From assembly GCA_021819035.1 (NCBI GenBank), contig JAKASL010000003.1:1-64000 (forward strand): a stretch of DNA of 64,000 nucleotides, read 5' to 3'. Shown one piece after another: positions 22,851 through 38,100 of this stretch (positions are counted from its first letter, which is position 1; every line of letters starts with the position of its first letter). This stretch comes from an archaeon. Its GTDB lineage: Archaea > Thermoproteota > Nitrososphaeria > Nitrososphaerales > Gagatemarchaeaceae. The position numbers and the translations under genes are program-made. A model generated the notes under the pieces. The model saw only the letters and a list, made by a program, of their open reading frames with translations. It was not told where the DNA came from and ran no database searches.

Positions 22851-24440
22851 TTAGCGAAGCGGCTTCGACATGTATGGGCCCTCCCTCTCGAAGCCGAGCC
22901 CCCGGTAGTACCCCCTGGTCCCGACGGCGCTGGTGACTAGGAGCTTCCTCGCGCCGAAGGCGGACGCTGCCACTTCTTCTGCCCGTCTCATCAGGGCGGC
23001 GCCGAGCCCGCGATGCTGCCAGGCTCCGTCGTCACGCCCCCCGAGCCTGACCGCCCTCCCGTAGACCCGCAGCTCCCTGACCACCGCAGCCCCCGCCATC
23101 TCCTTCCTGTGGGCCCTGGCTGACGGAGCGCGAAGCCTGACGAAACCGGCGATGACCCCCGACCTCTCCAACTCAAAGGAGCCGAACGCCTCTTCACCCT
23201 CCGAAGCCGTGTACTTGGCCTGTCTGAACTCGAGGCCGTCGTCCTCGATGTCCCCTGGGCCTTTCAAGGCGACCTCCCTGCACCTGATGCATCTGCACGA
23301 CACCCCTTTCTCCTCTGCCTTCCTCAGGACGAGCTGCCTCAGGTTGCCGTCCCTGACCCCGCCTGCTATCTCGTCGGCTGGAATCTCCCTCTGTATCCTC
23401 ATTATCCTGTGCCATGGCGGGACGAACCTCTTCATCTCGCTGAGGAGCTCCACCACGGTCTCCAGGCCGTATGGGACGTAGCGCCCGGCTTCGAACTGGC
23501 GTGCCAGGGCGGTCCCTGGCACCACAAGGGTCGGATAGAGCTTGGACATGTCAGGCATGAGCGTCTCGTCTTCGAAGAGCCTGCGCAGGTCGGCCAGGTC
23601 CTGCTCCGGGGTCGCCCCTGGGAGCCCGGGCATCATGTGGGCCGTCACCTTGAGCCCTGCGTCCTTTGCCACCTGGAATGCCCTGGCTGTGTCCTCGGCG
23701 GTGTGCCCCCTGTTGCTCTTCGCCAGCACCTCATCGCGCAGGCTCTGGACCCCTACCTCGAGCCTGGTGATGCCATAGCTCAACATTAGGTCGACGTCCC
23801 TGGGCCTGCACCAGTCTGGCTTCGACTCCAGGGTCAGGCCGACGCATCTGCTCTCCGCAGACTCGTTGAGGGCCTGCGCGGCGTTCAGGGTCGCGGACAC
23901 CGACCCGTTGAGCCCGTCGTAGACCCCTTTGACGAACCGTCTCTGGTAATCTTCGTCGACGGCGATGAACGTCCCCCCTTCGATGATCGTCTCCACCTTG
24001 CTTGTCTCATGGCCGTTGGCGCTGTACTTCGCCAGGCACCTCCTCACCTGGAGGAAGGGGTCGAACTCGGCCGAGAGCGCCGACTTCATCCCAGGGCTGC
24101 GTGGGAGGTAGGACTGCGGCGTCCCGAGTCTGGGGCCCCCTGGGCAGAACACGCATGTCCCGTGCGGGCATGCAAACGGCGCGGAAAACGCGGTTACGAC
24201 CACGATGCCGGACGCGCTCCGCCTCGGATGGACCCTGAGGAGCGCCTGGAGCCCCTCCGCCTTGTCGCCGGGGAGATTCGTGATGATATCTGAGTTGGAC
24301 GGATACCTGTCCAGGCCATAGAGGGAGGCGGCACGCTTCTTCGCCTTCTCCAGGCCTTCCCTCGAACGCACTTCCCCCTTTGATATGAGCTCCGCTAAGT
24401 AGGATACCGCGTCCTTGATACCGAGCCCCTGCTCTGTCAC
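22851..24440 (-). CDS. elp3: tRNA uridine(34) acetyltransferase, Elp3 family
   Basis: A 529-residue radical-SAM/GNAT enzyme that starts cm5U-type modification of the wobble uridine. The [4Fe-4S] cysteines are in FACPHGTCVFCPGGP, the SAM domain continues through GLTLESKPDWC and MMPGLPG, a zinc/linker CRCIRC follows, and the C-terminal acetyltransferase carries WQHRGLGAALMRRAEE. I chose the GTG at 24440, which overlaps the TGA of the eS30 gene (GTGA) and gives M-T-E-Q-G-L-G. The frame continues upstream to an ATG at 24578, but those codons are the eS30 gene read in the wrong frame. Confidence 0.93.
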   Translation of the reverse strand: MTEQGLGIKDAVSYLAELISKGEVRSREGLEKAKKRAASLYGLDRYPSNSDIITNLPGDKAEGLQALLRVHPRRSASGIVVVTAFSAPFACPHGTCVFCPGGPRLGTPQSYLPRSPGMKSALSAEFDPFLQVRRCLAKYSANGHETSKVETIIEGGTFIAVDEDYQRRFVKGVYDGLNGSVSATLNAAQALNESAESRCVGLTLESKPDWCRPRDVDLMLSYGITRLEVGVQSLRDEVLAKSNRGHTAEDTARAFQVAKDAGLKVTAHMMPGLPGATPEQDLADLRRLFEDETLMPDMSKLYPTLVVPGTALARQFEAGRYVPYGLETVVELLSEMKRFVPPWHRIMRIQREIPADEIAGGVRDGNLRQLVLRKAEEKGVSCRCIRCREVALKGPGDIEDDGLEFRQAKYTASEGEEAFGSFELERSGVIAGFVRLRAPSARAHRKEMAGAAVVRELRVYGRAVRLGGRDDGAWQHRGLGAALMRRAEEVAASAFGARKLLVTSAVGTRGYYRGLGFEREGPYMSKPLR

Positions 24441-24624
24441 TGGCGCATCCAGTTCTGGCCGGGCTTCCGCTTCAGGGTGAAGCGCTTCTCGTAGGTCCGC
24501 TTGTTCCTTACCTTGGGGATCTTGCCGGCCTTTTCCTTCCCTTCGAGCTTTGGAGTCTGACTTCGGACTCGAGGCCACCTTCAGGGTGTTTGCCCGCCTT
24601 GGTCAGTGATCCGTGAGTTGGCGT
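24437..24624 (-). CDS. rps30e: 30S ribosomal protein eS30, interrupted by a 20-base predicted intron
   Basis: Two segments in different frames match archaeal eS30: PTHGSLTKAGK (24621-24590) and VRSQTPKLEGKEKAGKIPK onward to KRKPGQNWMRQ, ending at TGA 24437-24439. Removing 24570-24589 joins them as AGK-VRSQTPK and gives a complete 55-residue protein of normal length. The excised piece sits between the two cut positions of a bulge-helix-bulge motif, so splicing is likely rather than decay. The codon at the expected Met is ACG (24624-24622), preceded by a strong GGAGGAGG 9 bases earlier and by a TATA box. The gene overlaps elp3 by 4 bases. eS30 belongs to the small subunit near the A site and is mainly a TACK/Asgard/eukaryote protein. 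Confidence 0.85.
24570..24589 (-). other. predicted 20-base BHB intron in eS30 mRNA
   Basis: In the mRNA the order is: helix CTGAC (24606-24602) with GTCAG (24561-24557), helix GGC (24598-24596) with GTC (24568-24566), central 4-bp helix GGGC (24595-24592) with GCCT (24575-24572), inner hairpin CACC-CTGAA-GGTG. The two 3-base bulges are AAA (24591-24589) and CGA (24571-24569). Cutting after the second base of each, as the archaeal splicing endonuclease does, releases exactly 24570-24589 and restores the reading frame. Confidence 0.8.
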
Positions 24625-24666
24625 GTTTTTGCACCTCCTCCTTCCTTGCTGAGGCGCCTGACCGCT

Positions 24667-35176: not shown

Positions 35177-38100
35177 TCCTCGGCACCTCGGCTGGTTTGT
35201 AGTGGACCACCCTCGAGGTCCCCCCAGCGGAGTAGACCCCGTATGTCATGTCGCTCTCCGCCACGAAGACGTCCCTGAGCGTGATGGCGATTATCTGCGC
35301 CTCGGCAGACTTCTCCTTCAGGAACTTCGCTAGGCTTCTCGAGTTGACCGCGTCCAGCGGGGCGTCAATCTCGTCGAAGAGATAGAACGGGTGGGTCTGG
35401 ACTGCCTGCATAGCGAGTATGAGCGACACCCCTGTCACCGCCCTCTGGCCACCGCTGTGCTGGGACGACTCGCGGAGCCCGTTCCCGAAGTCGGCGCGCA
35501 TGAATATCCCACCGGCGAGGATCTCGTCAGGGTTCTCGAGGTCGAGCTGGGCCCTCCCCCCGGTCAGCTTCGCGAAGATTGAGCTGAACCCGTTCCCGAC
35601 CTTCTCGAAGGCTGACATGAACACCTTCCTCTTCTCAGCCTCCACGCTCTCGATGAAAGCTATGATCGAGTTCCGCTCGCTCTCGAGCTCGTTGTGCCTG
35701 ACGGAGAGGTTCTTGTAGCTCAGGTACATCTCTGTATACTGCCTGTCGGCCCCCCTGTTCACCGAGCCGGAGGCTCCCTGGTACTCCTGCTGCAGCTCCG
35801 CCAGGAGGGACTCGCACGAGTCGAAGTACTCGAGCTCCTCAGCGTATCCGAGCATCCTCAGGCTCCCGAGCGCCTCTTCTATCTTCTCCTGGGTCGTCGA
35901 CGCCTGCCCCGCGAGGGCGAACACGTCCTTCTGGTGACCCGCCACGGACCTGGATACGGCGTCCCTCTCCTCCTTCAGCCGCTTCGCCTTCGCATCGAAC
36001 TCGTCCAGGACCGGCTGGCTCCGCTTGGACGACTCCATCAGCTTCGATATCTGGTCCTCGAGCGTCTTCTTCTGCTCCGCCAGCTCCCTGATCCTGCGGG
36101 GCGCCTCCCTCGCGAACTGCTTGTTCGACTGCAGGTCCTCCGTGGCGTTGGCAAGGTCAAGCTGGTTCTCCTCCAGGGCCCGCAGGAGCACGTTCTCCAG
36201 GTTCGCCTTTTCCCTGGTCAGGGTGAGGTTGATGTCCTGGATGCGGTTCCTGATTGCATCTATCTCGTCTGAGACCGACTTCTTCTCTGCGTCGAGCTCG
36301 GCGAGGTGCCCCTCCAGGCCGAGGGCCTGGGAGCCGGCGACTACCTGCTGGAGGGAGGCAATCCCCTTCGCGATTGACTCCTTCCTGTCGGCGTTGGCCT
36401 TGAGCCTCTCCTCCAGCCTGGCAACTACTCCGGCCTGCTTCTCATACTCCGCGTTCATGGCCTTGTAGATGCTCCTGTACCTCTTGGCCATCCGCGCTAT
36501 GGTAGTCGCCTCCGCCTTCAGGCTGGTGGTTGTGACGATCTTCTTGATCCGCTCCTTCATCATCGAGCGGGAACCTGACTCCAGCGAGTTTAGCTCGGAT
36601 CTCCTCCTCTCAATGGCCCCCTTGAGGGCTCCGACGGCGTCCTCGACCTCGCTGATCCCCTCGATGTTCTCCAACCCCTCCATCAGGTTGACCATAAGCT
36701 CCTGGTAGCCGTAGCTGAACGCCCTCCCGCCTGGCTCGAAGGTCTCCCCCGCCTCCGTAACGGCCCTGACCCCTTCTGAAGCCATGATGTACCCGATGGC
36801 CTCTGTCTCGACCAGGACCGAGTCCCCTGCGAGGAAGTTGACCAGACCATCGAACTCCCCCTCGCACTTTATCACATCGGAGAGCGGGCCGATAACCCCG
36901 GCCGACTTGTCCACGTCGGCTGCCTTGCATGACTCTACTTCGCTGAGCGGGATGACGGAGAAGCTCTTCGCCTTCAGCGACTTCGCCGCCTTGATTAGAT
37001 GGGTCATGGACTTCAGGTCCTGGACGATGAACGCACCGAGCCACTTCCCCATCACAGCGTTGACAGCCTTGGAGTACTGCTGCGGATACTTCACTATCTG
37101 GCCCAGCCTCCCGACGTAGCCCGGGACGCCGCCCTGGTCGCAGAAGTCCTGGAGCTTCAGCTGCCCGCTCCTCTCCCCCGCAAGGCTTTCTGAGAGGTGC
37201 CTGAACGCCTCTTCCTTCGACATCTCCGCCGACGCCTTCTCCAGTATCTTCGAGGCGCCCTGGATGGAGTCCACAAGCATCTCCCTCTTCTTCTCCTCCC
37301 CCGACAGGGTCTCGTCGAGGGTGCTGAGCTCCTTCGTGGAGGAGTCGTAGAGCCCGAAGAGCTCCTTGGTGTTCGCCTCCAGCTTCCCCAGGACCTCGGA
37401 GTACCCGTCGACCCTGAGCTTCAGCTCATCCAGGCGCTTCCGCTCCGCGCCCAGGCTGGCGCTGGTGGCGTTGATGGCCATCTCCACCTGGGTCTGCTTC
37501 TGGGTGAGGTCGGTCAGCTTCGCCTGCACCCTCGCAGTGAGCCTCCCCTTCTTCTCGATGGTCCCCCTCAGCTCCTCCCCGGCGCGGAAGAACTCCTTCA
37601 GCCTCTGCGCGAGCTCGGCGTGCTTGGCGTCGAGCTTCTCCATGTCTGCCGTCAGCTGCCTCACCGTCGAGGAGGCGGCGTTGACCTCCTTCTGCTTCTC
37701 AGATACGACCTGCTTCAGCTGCGGCACCGTCTCCCCCTCTAGCTCGGCGACGTTCCCCTCGGCCGTCTTGTAGTCAGACTCCAAGGTCTCGAGCTCGTTC
37801 CTGAGCTCGGCGAGCTGGAACTGCAGCTCGACGTGGCTCGCTCCCCCTCCCTGGATGACCTCCACGATGAACTTCGTCTTGTCGCTCTCGACCTGGGATA
37901 TGCGGCTCTCCAGCTCGACCAGCCTCGCCCCCAGGTCCGCGAGCTTCCCGTTGAGCTCCTGCTCCTGCGACCTGATGTCTGCGAGCCTCCCCTTCAGGTC
38001 GGTCACCCTCTTCGAGGTGATCACCGCGTTGAGCCAGTTTATCTGGGACTCGAGCAGGTCATACCTGACCATCTCGGTCCTCTGGGAGTCGAGCGACTCG

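Follow-up and report, generated by a model that had tools for sequence, protein, structure and literature searches.

The eS30 gene (rps30e) of the archaeal genome studied here lies on the minus strand (24624-24437) of the window, the 64,000-nucleotide stretch of DNA that was analysed as a whole, and carries an insertion of 20 nt at 24589-24570 that breaks the frame. The gene begins with an ACG codon, and its stop codon overlaps the GTG start of elp3, forming a GTGA. The features of the locus are as follows.

24632-24638, minus strand: Shine-Dalgarno-like GGAGGTG, 7 nt before the ACG start, recognized by eye
24590-24624, minus strand: exon 1 of eS30, with the ACG start at 24624-24622, coding (M)PTHGSLTKAG and the first two bases of Lys12
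24592-24595, minus strand: 5′ strand of the central helix, GGGC, exonic
24589-24591, minus strand: 5′ bulge AAA, with the predicted cut between 24590 and 24589
24570-24589, minus strand: 20-nt intron A, ACACCCTGAAGGTGGCCTCG, in phase 2
24576-24588, minus strand: inner hairpin CACC-CTGAA-GGTG, of which all 4 pairs show changes on both sides in relatives
24572-24575, minus strand: 3′ strand of the central helix, GCCT, intronic
24569-24571, minus strand: 3′ bulge CGA, with the predicted cut between 24570 and 24569
24437-24569, minus strand: exon 2 of eS30 (VRSQTPK onward), with the stop TGA at 24439-24437
22851-24440, minus strand: elp3 (NCBIfam TIGR01211, 592.5 bits), with its GTG start at 24440-24438

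Cutting after the second base of each 3-nt bulge removes exactly these 20 nt and restores a 55-residue eS30, which scores 47.8 bits against Pfam Ribosomal_S30 (cut-off 27), whereas exon 2 alone scores 22.2 bits. The spliced protein also passes the NCBIfam S30e model, although narrowly (76.0 bits, cut-off 75), and its best matches among solved structures are eS30 chains. A search of the assembly (1.67 Mb, 3 contigs, 88% complete) found one eS30 match only, at this place. The bulge-helix-bulge (BHB) is as described in the earlier note, with an outer helix GGC/GTC, a central helix GGGC/GCCT containing one G.U pair, the bulges AA^A and CG^A, and the inner helix CACC/GGTG, while the additional CTGAC/GTCAG helix exists here but is poorly conserved (77.3% of cells paired). 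The description is corrected in three respects: the gene is on the minus strand, its start codon is ACG, and the intron, of which the note knew no example this small, is not the smallest known, as cbf5 introns are 16-44 bp (PMC2738675).

The bare motif is not rare, and alone would prove little. Strict BHBs of 14-40 nt number 28 on the plus and 45 on the minus strand of the window, against 33, 34 and 40 in three 50-nt-block shuffles of the plus strand; with a length of exactly 20 nt there are 0 (plus) and 4 (minus), one of the 4 being this site, against 2, 1 and 2 in the shuffles, i.e. about 3 per 100,000 positions. The local folding energy is also unremarkable (z -0.99 and -1.06), and the ideal BHB scores -14.9 against a minimum free energy (MFE) of -16.2 kcal/mol, namely 1.3 kcal/mol above it, with outer-pair probabilities in the ensemble of only 0.08-0.28. 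Among 11 intron-A sequences folded, the MFE structure holds the central plus inner helix exactly in 5, in a shifted register in 3, this genome among them, and not at all or only in part in 3. What exceeds chance is the exact coincidence of the two cut sites with the ends of a frame-breaking insert in a conserved gene, whose removal restores the frame, together with recurrence and covariation in relatives. A scan of the window for other BHBs that would join two reading frames was uninformative, because long chance frames in this G+C-rich sequence give many false gains.

To determine whether the insertion recurs, we first surveyed 61 genomes, namely this one plus 60 relatives, and found 11 eS30 matches that began at model residue 11 or 12, this one among them. 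A profile built from spliced eS30 then gave a match in 31 of 46 genomes of the family, which we take to be Gagatemarchaeaceae (formerly Thaumarchaeota group I.1c; PMC10640624), as one contig of the family (53,892 bases, match at 35927-36085) coincides with PLUF01000027.1 of 'Candidatus Gagatemarchaeum stordalenia'. Reading the DNA of all 31 showed that 11 carry intron A only (19-20 nt), 10 carry a different upstream intron only, termed intron B (31, 32 or 46 nt), 6 carry both and 4 carry neither, so that A occurs in 17 and B in 16 of the 31. Intron B sits 16 nt upstream of intron A (spliced distance), and its 46-nt form, in one genome, is expanded by TCG-type repeats inside the hairpin loop without effect on the spliced product. 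Excision of A after the second bulge base, and of B at AGTC^A...^TCAC, gives PTHGSLTKAGKVR behind the start codon in all 27 intron-bearing genes in silico. In an order-wide sample of 200 genomes of at least 85% completeness, 188 had a match. Of the 15 family genomes without an eS30 match, 14 also gave no Elp3 match at E 1e-30 and the 15th only a piece at a contig end; missing sequence is therefore the simpler reading, although loss of the gene is not excluded.

Both the recurrence and the covariation that the earlier note had asked for were found. For intron A (17 genomes, 15 distinct rows), the central, inner and adjacent outer helices are 100% paired; the central and inner helices pair in 115 of 115 cells, 27 of which are changed on both sides, and 0 of 500 shuffles were as high on cells paired, double changes and covariation score, while slid controls were 42-58% paired. 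However, the number of pairs with a double change (5) and the number of pair types (11) did not exceed shuffles (198/500 and 392/500), and these are pair counts on a named structure, with which the single-sequence folds agree only in part. The third base of the exonic Gly codon is G, C or T in 8, 4 and 3 rows, and its intronic partner is C, G and G accordingly. For intron B (16 genomes, 14 distinct rows), the central helix is 100% and the inner stem 92.1% paired, with a more distant exon-exon helix at 88.6%; one central pair, formed between exon 1 and the intron, is A-U in 7 rows and G-C in 7, and 15 cells are changed on both sides overall, with 0 of 500 shuffles as high. Intron B has only one pair beside its 3′ bulge by reading of the alignment, not the outer helix of at least two pairs of a canonical BHB, and hence is a relaxed form; of 4 intron-B sequences folded, the BHB core is the MFE structure in 1 and the centroid in one more. 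As the rows are related and the structures came from the same sequences on which covariation was counted, these counts lean in favor. The spliced gene is under purifying selection, with a median dN of 0.072 and a median dS of 1.17 over 148 usable pairs of 153 from 18 genomes, and exon 1 has a median dN of 0 over 113 usable pairs.

The genes for the processing enzymes are present. Six of six genomes tested, five of the family and one of another family, carry two PF01974 splicing-endonuclease genes. In this genome one product (185 aa) aligns best with the catalytic-type chains 3p1z and 3ajv and keeps the Tyr, His and Lys that probably form the active site, whereas the other (181 aa) has Ala in the place of the His of 1a79. 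This fits an (alpha-beta)2 enzyme, a kind that can also cut relaxed BHBs, with an exception noted (PMC6379350), as intron B would need. One RtcB match is also present in this genome. Of its 26 tRNA matches, 15 are 90 nt or longer, some of them of kinds with long variable arms, and a heuristic search found in several of them BHB candidates of 15-32 nt with the same 3-4-3 geometry whose removal leaves a tRNA-like sequence, for example Val 16 nt, Arg 15 and 17 nt, and Pro 22 and 32 nt, although some other candidates are doubtful. Several candidates lie at non-canonical places (variable loop, D loop), and that of tRNA-Val (GGCGAA^...CGCCAT^GGTC) has an exon context resembling that of eS30 intron A. 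In contrast to these short tRNA introns, the host of intron A is an mRNA, and one strand of its central helix is constrained by codons. Among other genes examined, cbf5 gave a match over the cut-off in one open frame without stops in 4 of 4 genomes, and eS25 and eS26 are likewise uninterrupted in 4 of 4, an apparent internal stop in eS26 proving on reading of the DNA to be the C-terminal stop.

Based on these findings, we propose, with high confidence although splicing is inferred without RNA data, that the insertion is a protein-spliced BHB intron in the pre-mRNA of ribosomal protein eS30. The pre-mRNA would fold locally so that exon 1 (GGGC), the intron and exon 2 (GTC) form a bulge-helix-bulge; the heteromeric splicing endonuclease, comprising a catalytic alpha and a structural beta subunit, would cut between bases 2 and 3 of each bulge; and an RtcB-type ligase would join the exons, so that G-AA|A-V becomes G-K-V-R and a full-length eS30 is translated. 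The second, independent intron B of relatives would be handled the same way. The insertion, its geometry, the frame restoration, the covariation, the purifying selection on the split gene and the presence of the enzymes' genes are established here, whereas cleavage, ligation and translation of the spliced mRNA are inferred.

Other readings appear unlikely. Translational bypassing or programmed frameshifting, in which the ribosome skips the insert on unspliced mRNA with the help of the hairpin, could be considered since the insert is short, hairpin-forming and interrupts a translated gene. However, inserts of 19, 20, 31, 32 and 46 nt at two sites, both used in 6 genes, would need several kinds of hop, the conserved feature is the shape of the splicing endonuclease's substrate with covarying exon-intron pairs, and genes for the enzyme are present. 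That the cell uses a truncated eS30 made from exon 2 alone, with the 5′ part as a leader structure, is also improbable: exon 2 alone still matches the family weakly, below the cut-off, but no ATG, GTG or TTG lies in its frame between the intron's stop and the conserved core, so exon 2 is unlikely to be translated alone. A decaying gene or an assembly error, which the ACG start and broken frame suggest at first sight, is the least likely, since 27 of 31 family genomes with eS30 have an insert and an otherwise intact gene, dN is far below dS, no other eS30 match exists in the 88%-complete assembly, ACG is shared by 15 genes, and intron A recurs in 17 genomes, among them records of differently named metagenome-assembled genomes. 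Group I or II introns and inteins do not fit inserts of 19-46 nt, every length of which shifts the frame, although no search for such introns was run.

The closest known system is the cbf5 pre-mRNA intron of Desulfurococcales and Sulfolobales (Watanabe 2002; Yokobori 2009, PMC2738675), for which lineage-specific loss has been described. The introns reported here sit in a different gene and a different lineage (Thaumarchaeota), at two sites that are both occupied in 6 genes, and intron A is a canonical BHB, whereas most cbf5 introns are said to be unconventional. In Haloferax volcanii, the HVO_1309 mRNA is processed by the splicing endonuclease at a BHB in the 5′ UTR (PMC7714728), while here the introns interrupt the coding sequence and shift the frame. 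Besides that case, the only BHB intron reported in an archaeal mRNA by 2020 was that of cbf5 (PMC7714728), and archaeal pre-mRNA introns were likewise confined to cbf5 homologs in PMC4810243; unproven putative introns of 12 bp have been mentioned in a rudivirus (PMC2738675). No report of an eS30 intron was found in a search limited to open-access literature, which is not proof of absence. eS30 would be a second such gene, in another lineage, with two intron sites that come and go among relatives. On an Elp3 tree of 29 rows, from which two sequences were left out as too short and one more was dropped, parsimony needs at least 9 changes for A and 5 for B, so the introns are gained, lost or exchanged often. 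This makes gain, loss and possible reverse splicing of protein-spliced introns testable in a natural series, and it also warns that gene prediction which ignores introns will miss or truncate such genes.

The start codons of the eS30 genes divide with intron B. All 15 genes without B start with ACG, and all 16 with B start with ATG (10) or TTG (6), never both an ACG start and intron B and never neither; but the tree yields only 3 independent well-supported pairs (p 0.25), so a functional link is only a suggestion, and shared descent or exchange of the 5′ end is not excluded. An Elp3 match follows eS30 in all 31 family genomes, and in 13 of the 20 same-genus genes it begins at the GTG of a GTGA that overlaps the eS30 stop, so unspliced eS30 might also affect elp3 translation. 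Speculatively, and with a low likelihood in our estimation, the eS30 introns could be a control device, in which weak initiation and splicing may be interchangeable brakes on eS30 and on elp3. In this view, the introns may have come from short tRNA introns inserted at a tRNA-like exon sequence (GG..AA^.GTC), although the sequences of intron A and tRNA-Val, aligned with MAFFT and compared by eye, are too short to judge such an origin, and it would be, to our knowledge, the first archaeal mRNA with two introns.

Among 80 loci, some of them of the same family, the codon at the expected eS30 start is ATG in 51, ACG in 10 (8 of the family and 2 outside), TTG in 8, GTG in 4, GTA in 2, ATC in 2 and CTG in 1, and was not found in 2, which appears to us unusually many non-AUG starts for a ribosomal protein. 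The two GTA and two ATC loci could have odd starts or further unrecognized splicing, and in the two ATC loci an in-frame TGA lies upstream with two codons between.
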